Shown: in pieces, positions 12,395-40,563 of the stretch
Layout: every line of letters begins with the position of its first letter
How positions within the stretch are numbered: the first letter of the stretch is position 1
DNA from: Pedobacter sp. Leaf170
GTDB lineage: Bacteria; Bacteroidota; Bacteroidia; Sphingobacteriales; Sphingobacteriaceae
Direction: 5' to 3'
Length of the DNA: 64,000 bases
NCBI RefSeq assembly: GCF_920984665.1
Contig: NZ_CAKLBP010000002.1
Location: 310,001 to 374,000, forward strand
Program-made: the position numbers and the translations under genes
Notes under the pieces: model-generated
What the model saw: the letters and a program-made list of their open reading frames with translations, nothing else
Told to the model about the DNA's origin: nothing
Database searches by the model: none

Positions 12395-12473
12395 CGTCAT
12401 TGCGAGGAACGAAGCAATCCTAAAGCGATTAGACGTAAAAAATACAAAGATTGCTTCGTGCCTCGCAATGACG
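12395..12473. repeat. Palindromic dispersed repeat, family A, copy 1
   Basis: Left arm 12395-12419 begins cgtcattgcgaggaacgaag and right arm 12449-12473 is its reverse complement with one mismatch in 25, separated by 29 bases. Closely related copies lie at 15077-15150 and 35638-35737. It is a REP-like element in the nuoF-nuoG gap. Confidence 0.9.
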
Positions 12474-34126: not shown

Positions 34127-34285
34127 TTATTTTTTTACAGGTTTAATGTCAGAAAAATCTATGCTACATTTGCAATTACCACCGCAACCATCTTTTTTAA
34201 CTTGCAAAGATTTATAAACCAAACGGCCAACATATACTAATGCAATAGCAAAAAGTAAAAAGACTAAAATCGTTTGAATGTTCAT
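34127..34285 (-). CDS. Small Cys-rich single-span membrane protein (FeoB-associated type)
   Basis: A 52-residue gene. The protein starts MNIQTILVFLLFAIALVYVG, giving one membrane helix (about 4-24), then a basic stretch, then the cysteine cluster DGCGGNCKCS (Cys 34, 38, 40) and a short tail ending KPVKK. This architecture matches the small Cys-rich proteins annotated next to FeoB iron transporters, but no feoB is nearby. The three cysteines could bind iron or zinc. A full -7 box lies five bases before the ATG. Confidence 0.78.
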   Translation of the reverse strand: MNIQTILVFLLFAIALVYVGRLVYKSLQVKKDGCGGNCKCSIDFSDIKPVKK

Positions 34286-34428: not shown

Positions 34429-35616
34429 TTATTGCTCCATGAAACCCACTGTTCCGCCAACCCAATCAAAATCTGCATTATAGCGAACGCCAATCATTTT
34501 GCCTCGGCTTAAGCGTGCTAAATTTAAGCAAAGCTGAGGTTCTCCACCATCGGGCCATAAGTACATCATTCTAATTTCTGCTTTTACGCCGCCGTCAGGC
34601 GATTGAACTACTGGTTCGTAACTTACTTTACGTTGTAAAATCCAGTTTTCAGGGTCTGCAATATTTTTTATATCAGTTTCTGAAACATCAATGATTACAC
34701 CCATGCCGGCAAAAGAAAATAATGGTTTTAATACATAGTTTTCTAAATCTGCAGGAATAGACGTTACTTCATTTAAAAACCTGGTTTCAGGTACAAATTC
34801 ACTTTTTAGAAAAGGCATGGTGTATTTACTGATTCTGTAAAACCAGTTTGGATGCGTCACCCATTCTACATCAAGTTCTTCGCGAGGGTCGAAACTGTTT
34901 TTAAAAATATCGGTATTATCTGCTACTTCATCAAAAATTAATCTGTTGTAAATTCTTTTTAACTGAATTTGCTTCCCATCTTCTTCGTAGAAAAGTTGTT
35001 TACCAATCTTCTTTATATCTTCTAAAGCCAAGATTTTAATGCCTAACATTTTCTGCGTCACAAAAAAATCTATTGCAGTTTTTTGATTGCGTGCATCAAC
35101 ATCCATTAAAGCTACTTCGTGTGGCTGATGCTGGCCAATTATAACTTCCTTAAAAAGTTCGATATATTTATCTTCATCAAATCCATTTAAGAAATAATTC
35201 AATGAATTATCAATGTTGTAGTTTTTTTTGAAGGTTTTGGCCAGGTGTGTTTGAAAACCATATAAAGACGGAAAACCCTGCATTTCAATAAGCATTGGAG
35301 TAAGTGCTCCTGCGTTATTCTTACAAATTCCAAAATCGAAAGTTAAAAAATGCGGCTGCTCGTTTTCATTAGGCACATTCCAGTTTTTTGGAATAGCGTT
35401 TTCTGTTAATGCCTTAAAGTTAGGCTGTTTAATTAGTTTGATGATTTCTTCGCCTGCGGCGATTAACTTTTCTTTTAAGTCCTTAGGTATAAATATTGGC
35501 GTTTCTGCAACTCTAAATGGAATTTCGGGATATCCTTCTTGTAAATCAGTCAAAAAGTTTTGATACTTTTCTTCAGTAAATTGCTGATTAAAATTTTGAC
35601 GTTGATCAGGTATCAT
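34429..35616 (-). CDS. ATP-grasp-like protein, putative amide ligase or its inactive relative
   Basis: The 395-residue protein resembles ATP-grasp or glutathionylspermidine-synthase-like proteins. Visible landmarks: FDFGICKNNAGALTPMLIEM (about 95-114), EVALMDVDARNQKTAIDFF, IQLKRIYNRLIFDEV, the nucleotide-loop-like VLKPLFSFAGMGVIID (about 298-313), WILQRKVSYEPV, and a C-terminal VKAEIRMMYLW followed by LNLARLSRGKMIGVRYNADF. I cannot name its substrate. It is the last gene of a minus-strand set (esterase, ATP-grasp, GCS2 ligase, amidotransferase, this gene) and is separated from the amidotransferase gene by a palindromic repeat. Whether it is active cannot be decided by eye. Confidence 0.62.
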   Translation of the reverse strand: MIPDQRQNFNQQFTEEKYQNFLTDLQEGYPEIPFRVAETPIFIPKDLKEKLIAAGEEIIKLIKQPNFKALTENAIPKNWNVPNENEQPHFLTFDFGICKNNAGALTPMLIEMQGFPSLYGFQTHLAKTFKKNYNIDNSLNYFLNGFDEDKYIELFKEVIIGQHQPHEVALMDVDARNQKTAIDFFVTQKMLGIKILALEDIKKIGKQLFYEEDGKQIQLKRIYNRLIFDEVADNTDIFKNSFDPREELDVEWVTHPNWFYRISKYTMPFLKSEFVPETRFLNEVTSIPADLENYVLKPLFSFAGMGVIIDVSETDIKNIADPENWILQRKVSYEPVVQSPDGGVKAEIRMMYLWPDGGEPQLCLNLARLSRGKMIGVRYNADFDWVGGTVGFMEQ

Positions 35617-35637
35617 AATTTAGTATTTTAATAATAT

Positions 35638-35737
35638 CGTCATTGCGAGGCAGGAAGCAATTTTGTTCTGATTAAGTAGCTAAACATTTAAGATCGCTTT
35701 CCCGAAGTGTCGGGATTAACTGTGCCTTGCAATGACG
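35638..35737. repeat. Palindromic dispersed repeat, family A, copy 3 (longer form)
   Basis: It begins cgtcattgcgaggcaggaag (35638-35657) and ends with the matching ccttgcaatgacg (35725-35737), as in copies 1 and 2. This copy is longer and has a nested palindrome cccgaagtgtcggg (35701-35714) in its right half. It lies between two genes of the ligase cluster. Confidence 0.82.
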
Positions 35738-35771
35738 ACCGCATAGAAAAGAGAGTTAGTGAATTAATTTT

Positions 35772-36596
35772 CTAGGCCTCCTGTAAATTCCCTATTGCTT
35801 TGTTTAAGAAATTTGGAAGAATAACGCTTTGTGTGAGTACAATTCTATCCGGGTCATCTAAACTATTTAGCATGTCGAAATATTTTGCTTCGCCATGGGT
35901 ATCAACAATGGCCTTTTTCTTTTCATCTTGTAGTAAATACATCTTCATGCCAATGGGATCAGCTTCCGGATGAAATTGAGTGCCAATGATTTCTTCGGTG
36001 AAACGAATTGACATCATGCAACGTTCCAGATCAACATGTTTACGCTCTTTTTCGATTGCTAACAATTTTGCTCCTTTTGCATTAAAAGCATCCAGATTAG
36101 GTTCGATTACCTGCCAATCTCTACTATCAACAGAATAGAAAGGGTTTGTAATTCCATCGAAAATTTCATCCTGCTCACCATCATTTGTCAAAGTGATAGG
36201 GAAAATACCAAAAGCGTTTGAACGCCTTTCGGTTACATTACCCAAATTATATTTTCTACAAGCCAATTGAAAAGAGTGGCAAATTAAGAAAGCATATTTC
36301 TTTTCTTCATTAGCTGAGTTAAAATTCTCAACCTGATCTAAAAGATTAAAAAAATCATTCTCCCATTTTTCACCCTTGCTTTCTATTGGGCTTCCCGGAC
36401 CACCGCTAGAAATGTAAGCATCGTAGTCAATGCCCGGAATTTGTCCTTTTTGTCTTAAATCAAAAATATCGAATGTTAAATTGATATTGTTTTCAGTTCT
36501 AAACCGGGATAAAATTTCCTGTATTCCCCGCATGCCCTGATTTGGAGCGCCGTTATTCATATCAATAACAGCGACCCTTAAGCTCCTTTTATCCAT
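35772..36596 (-). CDS. Class I glutamine amidotransferase-like protein
   Basis: The 274-residue protein has a class I amidotransferase fold: oxyanion-region YISSGGPGSP (about 60-69), nucleophile elbow FLICHSFQLACR with the catalytic Cys (about residue 105), and the His-Glu pair in GTQFHPEADP (about 205-214). So the Cys-His-Glu triad looks intact, but the elbow is ICHSFQ and not the usual GxCxGxQ, which suggests a substrate other than plain glutamine or a gamma-glutamyl hydrolase role. It starts 7 bases after the stop of the GCS2-ligase gene, so the two are translated together. Confidence 0.82.
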   Translation of the reverse strand: MDKRSLRVAVIDMNNGAPNQGMRGIQEILSRFRTENNINLTFDIFDLRQKGQIPGIDYDAYISSGGPGSPIESKGEKWENDFFNLLDQVENFNSANEEKKYAFLICHSFQLACRKYNLGNVTERRSNAFGIFPITLTNDGEQDEIFDGITNPFYSVDSRDWQVIEPNLDAFNAKGAKLLAIEKERKHVDLERCMMSIRFTEEIIGTQFHPEADPIGMKMYLLQDEKKKAIVDTHGEAKYFDMLNSLDDPDRIVLTQSVILPNFLNKAIGNLQEA

Positions 36597-36603
36597 AATA
36601 ATT

Positions 36604-37704
36604 TTACTTTGCGCCTATAAGTGTCTGTGTGGTAATGTAATCTACCACGGCCTCAAAGTTACCGGTTTGTTCGTAAACTGCCAACTGTCTGTCTGCACCT
36701 GTACCGTGTTCTAAAATTTTATGTACATAATTAAGGTCTTCTCTGCAACCTAAATCATCAACAACATCATCTACAAAATCTAAAAGTTCTAAAACCAGAT
36801 TTCGGCAATTTACCTCCATCTCTTTACCAAAATCAATTAAATTTCCATCTATTCCATATCTTGCAGCACGCCATTTGTTCTCGTTGATTAAGGCACGGGA
36901 GTAATTTATGAAAGTCATGTTTTGCAAACGCAGTTTATACAGCTTGGCGCAAAGTGCCTGAAACAGGGCCGTAAAAGCCATCGTTTCATCAATTAACATT
37001 GGGCAATCGCAAATTCTAAATTCTACCGTATCAAAAAATGGATGTACACGAATATCCCACCAGATTTTTTTTGCATTATCCATGCAACGGGTTTTAATCA
37101 GCAGTTTAACATAGTTATCATAATCTTCTATGCTGTTAAAAATATCAGGAATTCCGGTGCGAGGGAATTTATCAAAAATCTTAGTTCTGAAAGATTTGTA
37201 ACCGGTATTTCTCGATTCCCAAAAAGGAGAATTTGTAGACAATGCAAAAACATGGGGAAGGAAATACCTTACCTGGTTTGCAATGTGTATGGCTAGCTCA
37301 CGCGATTGAAACCCGACATGAACGTGTAGACCAAAGATTAAGTTTGAACGTGCAGCTTCCTGCAGTTCGTTAACAATTTCATTATAGCGGGGATGTTCTG
37401 TTATCAATTGTTTTTCCCAATGAGAAAATGGGTGAGTTCCGGCGGCACCAATACGTAAGCCCTGCTCGCCTGCAAGCTGCGATACCGTATAGCGTAATTG
37501 CGAAATTTCCTTCCGGGCTTCGGTTGTTGTTTTGCAAATTCCGGTTCCGACTTCTACAACAGCCTGGTGCATTTCTGCTTTAACCTGGTCTTTATGTATT
37601 TTTTGTGCCGCCTCAACAATTTTTTGGTCGTGCGAGGTAAGTTCCCTGGTAACGGGATCAATTACCATATATTCTTCCTCTATACCAAGCGTAAATTCGT
37701 TCAT
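36604..37704 (-). CDS. Carboxylate-amine ligase, GCS2/YbdK family
   Basis: Relatives of plant/proteobacterial glutamate-cysteine ligase that join an amino group to a carboxylate with ATP. The 366 residues open with the family signature LGIEEEYMVIDPVTRELTSH (about 6-25) and continue with EMHQAVVEVGTGIC, RIGAAGTHPFSHW, FGLHVHVGF, TVEFRICDCP, and NKWRAARYGIDG near the C-terminus; all metal/ATP-site acidic residues I can recognise are present. The substrate is unknown; YbdK itself has weak glutamate-cysteine ligase activity. It is 29 bases after the ATP-grasp gene and 7 bases before the amidotransferase gene. Confidence 0.9.
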   Translation of the reverse strand: MNEFTLGIEEEYMVIDPVTRELTSHDQKIVEAAQKIHKDQVKAEMHQAVVEVGTGICKTTTEARKEISQLRYTVSQLAGEQGLRIGAAGTHPFSHWEKQLITEHPRYNEIVNELQEAARSNLIFGLHVHVGFQSRELAIHIANQVRYFLPHVFALSTNSPFWESRNTGYKSFRTKIFDKFPRTGIPDIFNSIEDYDNYVKLLIKTRCMDNAKKIWWDIRVHPFFDTVEFRICDCPMLIDETMAFTALFQALCAKLYKLRLQNMTFINYSRALINENKWRAARYGIDGNLIDFGKEMEVNCRNLVLELLDFVDDVVDDLGCREDLNYVHKILEHGTGADRQLAVYEQTGNFEAVVDYITTQTLIGAK

Positions 37705-37733
37705 CCTGATGGTTATTAAATTCTAAATCCCTT

Positions 37734-38786
37734 TTATTTCTTTGCTGCTGGCTTTTTTGGCTTAGCCGATGCTTTAGTTGCAACCGTTTTTTCAGGTGCT
37801 TTTTTAGCCGCAGGTTTAGTTGCTGCTTTAGCAACAAGCGGTCTTCCGGCTACTGATGCTTTAATATATTCTCCCCAGGTTAAATTATCCTGTCCATCTT
37901 TTTGCGCTTTAGCTCTTTCAATTGCATAATTAGCAGTAGTTTCTACAACCCAATCAAAGTTTTCTTGTCCAACGCTTTTTATATCAGCATCTGGCGCAGG
38001 GTTACAAAAATCAATCGCGATAGGCACACCATCACGAACTGCAAACTCTACCGTATTAAAATCGTAACCTAAATATTGGCAAAGTTTTAGGGTGTATTCT
38101 TCTACTGTTTTTAATAATTTTTCGCTTGATGGTTTGGTATCGACCGCATAGCGTAAGTGATGCGGGTTACGCGGGTCGTATTGCATAATGCGAACATGTT
38201 TGCCACCAATGCAATACACTCTGAAATATTCATCAAAAATTATTTCTTCTTGCAGCAACATCACCAGTTGCTCTGTGCCGCTATGTTTATCAAAAAAATC
38301 TTCCTTATCATGAAGTTTGTAAACATCTCTCCAGCCTCCACCATCAAATGGCTTCATATAAGCCGGAAAGCCTACATAATCAAAAATTTCATCCCAGTTT
38401 AAAGGCATTGTTAAGTTTGAAAATGAATCGCCGGTTGTGCCTGTTGGATGTTGTCTGGATGGAATCAACGCTGTTTTTGGAACTGGCACGCCAATTTGTT
38501 CGGCAAGTGAGTTGTTAAAAAACTTTTCATCGGCACTCCACCAAAATGGGTTGTTAATTACCGCAGTACCGGTTATGGCTGCATTTTTTAAAGAAGCACG
38601 ATAAAAAGGTACATCCTGCGAAATTCTATCAATGATTACAGAATAGCCCAAAGGTTGATTTTGTAATATTTTCTCAATTTTAACGGCTTCTGCAGTGATG
38701 CCTTTTTCAGCTTTTTGGTTAATTCTTTCAACTACCGCTTCTGGAAAAGAGCGTTCTTGTCCAAATAAAATCCCTATTTTTTTCAT
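37734..38786 (-). CDS. RimK-like ATP-grasp ligase with a Lys/Ala/Pro-rich tail
   Basis: The 350-residue protein has an N-terminal pre-ATP-grasp region (MKKIGILFGQERSFPEAVVE), a nucleotide-binding region with FPAYMKPFDGGGWRDVYK (about 139-156), and the catalytic part LQEEIIFDEYFRVYCIGGK, then FNTVEFAVRDGVPIAIDFCN with the metal-ligating Glu, Asp and Asn (about 243-262). These are the elements of a live ATP-grasp ligase. The last 35 or so residues (AAKKAPEKTVATKASAKPKK and on) are a basic, low-complexity tail like those of histone H1-like proteins, unusual for a metabolic ligase. It is 79 bases after the esterase and 29 before the GCS2 ligase. Confidence 0.85.
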   Translation of the reverse strand: MKKIGILFGQERSFPEAVVERINQKAEKGITAEAVKIEKILQNQPLGYSVIIDRISQDVPFYRASLKNAAITGTAVINNPFWWSADEKFFNNSLAEQIGVPVPKTALIPSRQHPTGTTGDSFSNLTMPLNWDEIFDYVGFPAYMKPFDGGGWRDVYKLHDKEDFFDKHSGTEQLVMLLQEEIIFDEYFRVYCIGGKHVRIMQYDPRNPHHLRYAVDTKPSSEKLLKTVEEYTLKLCQYLGYDFNTVEFAVRDGVPIAIDFCNPAPDADIKSVGQENFDWVVETTANYAIERAKAQKDGQDNLTWGEYIKASVAGRPLVAKAATKPAAKKAPEKTVATKASAKPKKPAAKK

Positions 38787-38865
38787 TCGTAATTTAGTTT
38801 AATTGTGTAACTGTTTATGGCATATAACCAGTTAATTCGTTTTATTGTTAAATTGTTTTCAGCAA

Positions 38866-39573
38866 CTATAATTGTGCAATATAATTTGGAAACATTTCTC
38901 TCCAAATTGGCCAGTCATGATCAGCATTCTGTCTGATGTCAAGCCAATGATCGATACCTTTTTGCGATAAAATACGCGACAGATTTTCGTTATCGCCCCT
39001 GCACATATCTCTATCAGTTGTACCTAAAACTATTTTCATGTAATGAAGTTCAGGGTTACTGTTATTCATCAGGTTATCAACAGGATTGTTAAAGTAAACA
39101 TCATCATTATAAAAACCATCAAGCTGGCCGGTAATATCAAAGGCACCGCTCATACTAAACATGTGGCTAACCAACCAGGGGTGCCGAAAAGCAAAGTTTG
39201 CGGCATGATAACCGCCAAAACTACAGCCTGCGGTAATAATTTTGCTATGGCCGGTTTCATGTCTGGCTAATGGCGCTACTTCTTCCAACAGGTATTTATC
39301 ATACCAAATGTGATTTTTTACTCTATCTGCGGGATGTATGCTTTTATTGTACCAGCTTAATTTATCAATACCATCCGGGCAGTATATTTTGATTTTACCT
39401 TCATTAATAAAACCCTCAACAGAATCAATTAATTTGAAGTCTTTGTTTTCAAAATATCGCCCCATACTTGTTGGGAACAGTAGAATAGGGATACCACCGT
39501 GACCAAAGATGAGCATGTCGATATCAGTATTTAAATTTTGGCTGTACCACCTTTTATGTTCTTCTTTAACCAT
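38866..39573 (-). CDS. Alpha/beta hydrolase, esterase family
   Basis: The 235-residue protein has the alpha/beta-hydrolase nucleophile elbow AGCSFGGYHAANFAFRHP (Ser about 123) with an acidic residue downstream and the catalytic histidine probably in NADHDWPIWR near the C-terminus. It resembles the putative-esterase group that includes esterase D and enterochelin esterases. There is no signal peptide, so it acts in the cytoplasm. First gene of the minus-strand ligase set, which suggests it trims or transfers an ester or acyl intermediate of that pathway (inference). Confidence 0.85.
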   Translation of the reverse strand: MVKEEHKRWYSQNLNTDIDMLIFGHGGIPILLFPTSMGRYFENKDFKLIDSVEGFINEGKIKIYCPDGIDKLSWYNKSIHPADRVKNHIWYDKYLLEEVAPLARHETGHSKIITAGCSFGGYHAANFAFRHPWLVSHMFSMSGAFDITGQLDGFYNDDVYFNNPVDNLMNNSNPELHYMKIVLGTTDRDMCRGDNENLSRILSQKGIDHWLDIRQNADHDWPIWREMFPNYIAQL

Positions 39574-39689
39574 ACAAAAATTTTAATGCTTTAAGGTATA
39601 AATTAAATTCTACAAAAATGAAAGCATTTGATCTAAAAAAGCTTATTACAAAAAATGGCAACTCATATTTAATAGTTTATCAAGATTTG

Positions 39690-39697
39690 TAACTTTG
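39690..39697 (+). promoter_or_regulatory. Candidate -7 box for the divergent esterase gene
   Basis: TAACTTTG is a full TAnnTTTG match, 47 bases before the ATG at 39745. No clear -33 box. The 171-base divergent region should also hold the promoter of the ligase operon on the minus strand, but I see no full match there. Confidence 0.45.
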
Positions 39698-39744
39698 CAA
39701 AAAAAATTGAGGCGGTTGCCATGTGATAGGGGGTTTGAATAATT

Positions 39745-40563
39745 ATGTACACTACAGTTTTATCGGTAAATATTAATACCAGTCATTTTAAGATTCCGTC
39801 GGCTTATTTAAAGCGTGAGGTTGAAATAGATATATATGCGCCTGAAGGCATTTTAGGCAATGAAAAAATTGAATTGTTATTACTGAACGATGGTCAGGAT
39901 GTAGCAAAGATGGATTTTGCGCAAATTTTGCAAAATGCGCACCTCAATAAAAGAAACCACAGATTGGTTGTTGTTGCCATTAAAGCATCTGTAGAGCGAT
40001 TAATGGAGTATGGCGTAGCCGGAGTGCCTGATTTTAAAGGCAGGGGCGCAAAAGCAAACTTATATTCAGATTTTATTATAAAGGAATTGATGCCCTTTGT
40101 AAAAAAGAAAATAGCAATGCCAATTGGTGGCAGAGTCGCTTTTGGTGGTTTTTCGTTAGGCGGTTTATCTGCTTTTGATATTGCCTGGAATAATCCTTCT
40201 GTTTTTGATACAATTGGTGTTTTTTCTGGTGCTTTTTGGTGGCGCAAAAAAGATTTGGCAGATGGTTACACTGATGCAGACAGGATTATGCATGAGCTTA
40301 TCGATACTACATCTACCAAACCAGATATGAAATTTTGGCTGATGACAGGAACGGAAGATGAAAAAGCCGACCGCAATAAAAACTTGATTATAGATTCTAT
40401 TGATGATACAATTGATGTGGTAAAATCGTTGTTGAAAAAGAACTACAAACGCCGCGAGCATATTTTTTATTATGAAAAAGTAGGTGGTAAGCACGATGTT
40501 GCAACCTGGGAGAGTGTAATGCCTGCATTTTTGGATTGGGCTTTCCCGAAAACGGGGATTTAA
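39745..40563 (+). CDS. Alpha/beta hydrolase, esterase family, divergent second copy
   Basis: The 272 residues carry the elbow RVAFGGFSLGGLSAFDIAWN (Ser about 139), an acidic region, and a C-terminal GGKHDVATWESVMPAFLDWA whose His is the likely base. It starts with a strand-rich region (FKIPSAYLKREVEIDIYAPE) like enterochelin-esterase-type proteins. It is divergent from the ligase operon and distantly related in fold to its first gene, so it may serve the same pathway. No signal peptide. Confidence 0.85.
   Translation: MYTTVLSVNINTSHFKIPSAYLKREVEIDIYAPEGILGNEKIELLLLNDGQDVAKMDFAQILQNAHLNKRNHRLVVVAIKASVERLMEYGVAGVPDFKGRGAKANLYSDFIIKELMPFVKKKIAMPIGGRVAFGGFSLGGLSAFDIAWNNPSVFDTIGVFSGAFWWRKKDLADGYTDADRIMHELIDTTSTKPDMKFWLMTGTEDEKADRNKNLIIDSIDDTIDVVKSLLKKNYKRREHIFYYEKVGGKHDVATWESVMPAFLDWAFPKTGI

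Follow-up and report, generated by a model that had tools for sequence, protein, structure and literature searches.

Why three ATP-dependent ligases of unrelated families stand beside an amidotransferase-fold protein and two esterases in Pedobacter sp. Leaf170, and whether these genes act together, is the question raised by the locus described here. The window, that is, the whole 64,000-nucleotide stretch of DNA that was analysed, carries five of the genes on the minus strand and one on the plus strand. The first gene of the operon, g1 (38866-39573), encodes an alpha/beta-hydrolase (PF00756-like esterase), and it is followed by g2 (37734-38786), a ligase with the RimK/LysX ATP-grasp fold; g3 (36604-37704), a GCS2 carboxylate-amine ligase of the YbdK/PRK13515 type; g4 (35772-36596), a class-I glutamine amidotransferase (GATase)-fold protein; and g5 (34429-35616), a circularly permuted ATP-grasp protein with the fold of glutathione synthetase (GSS), glutathionylspermidine synthetase (GspS) and YgiC. 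A second PF00756 esterase, e2 (39745-40563, plus strand), is divergent and is a lineage-dependent partner. All six reading frames start with ATG and end exactly where a preliminary description of this DNA had placed them, and its six family assignments were found to be correct, those of g2 and g5 with the help of predicted structures. The gaps from g1 to g5 are 79, 29, 7 and 155 bp, in agreement with the 29 and 7 bp claimed earlier for the middle three genes. The intergenic region between the divergent transcripts (39574-39744) holds TAACTTTG, which is oriented to e2 and is, as a pattern match only, a Bacteroidetes-type -7-like element (TAnnTTTG). None of the flanking genes examined (CRP-like regulator, YceI, pirin, ispF, SnoaL-like protein, potassium channel and typA) was related to the cluster.

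The gene content of the locus is conserved and co-inherited in other Bacteroidota, and its proteins have predicted folds with intact active-site motifs. At least 590 related loci were recovered in a scan with g2, and synteny was examined in the best 80, which belong to Pedobacter, Mucilaginibacter, Pontibacter, Algoriphagus, Indibacter, Sediminibacterium, other Chitinophagaceae and Saprospiraceae. In these best 80 of at least 590 loci, the order g1-g2-g3-g4-g5 was largely kept and the flanks varied. As synteny persists in most of 80 independent loci with differing flanks, the arrangement is not due to chance. The CRP, YceI, pirin and typA flanks are common mainly to Pedobacter and its relatives, and therefore it is the cluster and not the region that is conserved. 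In most Chitinophagaceae loci, only e2, g2 and g3 were together, and in the Saprospiraceae loci, g3 was not nearby. Extra members of the Chitinophagaceae operons (F9-F11: a sigma factor, an outer-membrane protein and a protein of no assigned family) were considered and judged unrelated. A plasmid search with g2 and g5 gave no matches.

In an even draw of 248 Bacteroidota genomes, where the E-value cut-offs may miss divergent members, g2 was present in 86 genomes, g3 in 79, g5 in 73 and g4 in 59. The three ligase genes g2, g3 and g5 co-occurred with Fisher p values of 1e-35 to 1e-42, and the pairs among g2 to g5 with values of 1e-18 to 1e-42, in tests that ignore shared ancestry. All three ligases were found in 65 genomes, 18 of which retain them fully dispersed, on separate contigs or with more than 8 kb between any two of them. 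Within one genus (that of genome G158), about a quarter of 200 genomes carry the system, a patchy presence: g2 and g5 were both found in 48 and both missing in 150, and the two discordant genomes were incomplete assemblies (68% and 89% complete). The pathway is not uniform, because the GATase was missing in 24 of the sampled genomes that hold g2, g3 and g5, and g3 was missing in 4 genomes with g2, g4 and g5 and in 8 with an alternative ATP-grasp.

This alternative ATP-grasp, a PF14403-like permuted protein, replaces g5. It is encoded between g2 and g4 both in those 8 genomes, which have g2 and g4 and lack g3 and g5, and in 5 genomes that have g2, g3 and g4 and lack g5. Among all 58 sampled genomes with g2 and g4, 45 carry g5 and 13 the PF14403-type enzyme, with none holding both and none holding neither. 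The profile of the replacement matched PDB 3n6x, which was also the top match of the g5 model. Since the profiles of g5 and of the enzyme that takes its place matched only weakly when compared directly (probability 6.5%), their kinship is structural, through the shared 3n6x match. The retention of scattered genes and the strict replacement of one ligase by the other indicate that the product is under real selection.

Taken together, synteny, co-occurrence across the phylum, the all-or-none distribution within a genus and the ligase replacement in the same slot strongly support the proposal of the preliminary description that the genes serve a common pathway, whose product may be a free small metabolite or a modified protein. 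The six-gene neighbourhood for which it suggested a search in other genomes was recovered in part: the genes are syntenic and co-occur, but the core consists of the three ligases rather than a strict set of six.

Three ligase families without an NRPS or a precursor peptide fit a stepwise pseudo-peptide assembly in which a gamma-glutamyl-type bond is formed first, and distinct peptide ligases, when linked, usually act in succession (PMC4431377). We give about an even chance to the reading that the locus is dedicated to the synthesis, independently of any NRPS, of a small pseudo-peptide with gamma-glutamyl or isopeptide links. Its fuller form, a Bacteroidota-wide route in which three unrelated amide ligases make a glutathione-like but distinct gamma-glutamyl pseudo-peptide serving as a cofactor, osmolyte or signalling molecule, is put forward more tentatively. 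The step order, the substrates, the product and the direction of the amidotransferase are what we infer here. The three ATP-dependent ligases, which belong to three families, would form one amide bond each. g3 would most likely couple the gamma-carboxylate of glutamate, or of a similar acid, to an amine; g5 would extend the peptidyl carboxylate by an amino acid or amine; and g2 would add a further residue. g4 would then most likely remove the gamma-glutamyl or a terminal residue in a PuuD- or EgtC-type manner, and the esterases may act on the product, or on a precursor of it, in processing or turnover.

g3 belongs unambiguously to GCS2, with 210 bits in Pfam and, in NCBIfam, 546 bits for NF010039/PRK13515 (cut-off 371); this assignment gives the class of the enzyme only and not its substrate specificity. 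The GhExE motif, which is the Mg/ATP-binding signature of GCS2/YbdK-type ligases (PMC2588565), reads GIEEE in the window protein and was kept in 108 of 109 orthologues.

g2 has no Pfam match, and its NCBIfam matches (TIGR00768/LysX) are far below threshold, 31.9 against 143.4 bits and 28.1 against 275.6 bits. Its AlphaFold2 model (pLDDT 84.5, with a disordered tail) matched ArgX/LysX, RimK, D-Ala-D-Ala and graspetide ligases in Foldseek. The ATP-grasp catalytic residues of RimK/LysX are present, and K145, E247, D259 and N262 are invariant. g2 thus has the fold and the catalytic residues in common with RimK/LysX/ArgX, but it differs from them in its scores, in a C-terminal tail of its own and in that the operon contains no LysW gene. 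The disordered tail (about residues 315-350) is rich in Lys, Ala and Pro; it is histone-H1-like and highly variable in Pedobacter, Mucilaginibacter and Saprospiraceae, and is absent in Algoriphagus and Chitinophagaceae (loci L001-L080). In locus L080, the g2 tail ends in an apparent helix-hairpin-helix segment.

RimK/LysX-type ligases act on proteins too, and the nearest relatives of g2 in fold, ArgX/LysX (carrier LysW), RimK (ribosomal S6) and the graspetide ligases, all act on polypeptides. An alternative, which we consider unlikely, is that g2 works with its partners to tag a protein with gamma-glutamyl or oligopeptide groups, which the hydrolases then take off. The Lys-rich tails of many g2 proteins could bind a macromolecule, and 16 of 27 g2 members showed weak similarity to R2K_2 (best E 7e-4); the R2K ATP-grasp clade, whose hallmark is a RAGNYA domain with two lysines and without the linker lysine, has been proposed to modify proteins (PMC4431377). 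However, no carrier or precursor ORF was found, the gaps of near 0-30 bp in tight operons leave no room for one, and the tails are missing from whole lineages. Moreover, GSS/GspS/YgiC-type and GCS2 enzymes are small-molecule ligases for the most part. A graspetide (RiPP) or carrier-protein system was considered separately and rejected, as the gaps are often 0-30 bp and no conserved small ORF fits inside the operon.

As a single sequence, g5 gave nothing in Pfam, NCBIfam or PDB; the window protein did not match the Pfam family GSP_synth (glutathionylspermidine synthase), and the best of 44 members reached E 4e-4, below the gathering cut-off. An AlphaFold2 model made from 44 sequences (pLDDT 92.7) gave 27 Foldseek matches with E <1e-3, all of the GSS/GspS/YgiC/YjfC/Cp1B type, and this predicted structure confirmed the ATP-grasp-like nature that had been claimed for 34429-35616. 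E111, Q113, K264, K297, E347 and R349 are invariant. YgiC and YjfC are reported to be peptide-polyamine ligases and Cp1B a pseudodipeptide ligase (PMC12568646).

The likeness of the g5 fold to glutathionylspermidine synthetase, and to YgiC and YjfC, which ligate peptides to spermidine, is consistent with a second alternative, the handling of amines or polyamines for storage, detoxification or nitrogen use, either by Puu-like gamma-glutamylation and de-glutamylation or by GspS/YgiC-like peptide-polyamine conjugation. GCS2 with a GATase-fold hydrolase would mirror the logic of PuuA/PuuD, and in one locus (L153, 3637-6240) a single frame encodes a sodium:solute symporter (SSF) as the N-terminal part with g5 behind it, which may hint at function. 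We regard this alternative as decidedly unlikely: no polyamine genes were among the cluster neighbours examined, g4 matches PF00117 only (38 bits, Pfam), the third ligase would be superfluous and the fusion to a symporter was seen only once.

The Cys-His-Glu triad of g4 (C106-H209-E211) is complete and invariant (33/33), and g4 usually lies near the permuted ATP-grasp gene, in 33 of 46 genomes with g5 and in all 13 with the alternative enzyme. Both observations would suit an ammonia-dependent amidation, in which the GATase feeds ammonia to an ATP-grasp to give a C-terminal or side-chain amide, as with CarA/CarB and MurT/GatD. This is improbable in our view, since 27 of the 248 genomes keep g5 without g4, and in two GATase-less genomes of different families (G075 and G113) an M29 aminopeptidase occupies the g4 slot. 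The latter finding, of two cases only, favours hydrolysis over ammonia transfer. It suggested that g4 most likely cuts an amide bond and less likely supplies ammonia for amidation.

Ordinary glutathione-type thiol synthesis, which the preliminary description had set against the single-pathway idea, is highly improbable; here it would depend on divergent forms of gamma-glutamylcysteine ligase and glutathione synthetase. GCS2 does stand together with a eukaryotic-GSS-like fold, and PF00756 includes the S-formylglutathione hydrolases, but the same genome has the bacillithiol gene bshC above the cut-off, and a prokaryotic-type gshB (TIGR01380) was not found in it. Furthermore, g5 is only 10-14% identical to GSS, another enzyme stands in for it in certain lineages, and a RimK-like ligase would be superfluous.

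The part played by the two esterases (PF00756, 27 and 74 bits in Pfam) is less regular. g1 has an AGCSFGG nucleophile motif with Asp189 and His219, and e2 has GFSLGG. The g1 family occurs in 98 of the 248 genomes and in 83 of the 86 with g2, being adjacent to it in 43. In two operons (L137 and L133), g1 has lost both the catalytic Ser and His, and in a third (L125) the Ser alone; judged from their sequences, these appear to be pseudoenzymes kept in the operon, so catalysis by g1 is not always required. The divergent spacing between e2 and the operon was mostly 155-191 bp (40 loci where measurable), and in Algoriphagus and Indibacter e2 does not adjoin the operon. The position of e2 in these two genera and the lost g1 residues weaken the view that both esterases are obligatory parts.

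Several known systems resemble this locus. PuuA/PuuD, EgtA/EgtC and BtrJ/BtrG are protecting-group pathways with a gamma-glutamyl ligase and a remover, and they likewise pair a gamma-glutamyl-type ligase with a GATase-fold or other amide hydrolase, but each role is filled by other families and no polyamine, ergothioneine or aminoglycoside genes lie near the cluster. The synthesis of glutathione and glutathionylspermidine (GCS2-type GshA, eukaryotic GSS, GspS) and the YgiC/YjfC systems likewise involve GCS2 and a permuted ATP-grasp; however, g5 is only 10-15% identical to these enzymes, the cluster adds a RimK/LysX-type ligase and a GATase, and the host has bshC. As summarised in PMC4431377, Iyer et al. 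(2009) described multi-ligase neighbourhoods with linked ATP-grasp and COOH-NH2 ligases and predicted peptide metabolites or tags as their products; to the extent of that summary, the present cluster is similar in linking unrelated amide ligases. Our literature search found no paper on this gene set, of which a prior mention in Iyer et al. (2009, Mol Biosyst 5:1636) is possible. Roughly one in three of the Bacteroidota genomes sampled carries the set, and two of its three ligases (g2 and g5) are without a named family at cut-off. If the pseudo-peptide route is correct, present maps of this phylum, a major one in soil, in the sea and in association with hosts, would lack a conserved metabolite or modification, and enzymologists would gain two useful new families of amide ligases.

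Some neighbouring features were also observed. In one family of loci (L171-L174 and L159), genes for a HutH histidine ammonia-lyase and a calcineurin-like metallophosphoesterase lie near g2, with HutH directly adjacent in most, and in L155, L160, L182 and L185 an Amidohydro_3 gene is overlapped by g5; we take these neighbours as weak functional leads. Between g5 and the CRP-like gene, a small ORF (34127-34285, minus strand) encodes a 52-aa Cys-rich membrane-type protein, which we presume to be similar to FeoB-associated Cys-rich proteins. The g4-g5 gap (35617-35771) contains an inverted repeat with the arms GTCATTGCAAGG ... CCTCGCAATGAC, which pair again at 12396/12461 and 15078/15138. This repeat is a dispersed REP-like element and may be the source of the variable gap length in relatives.
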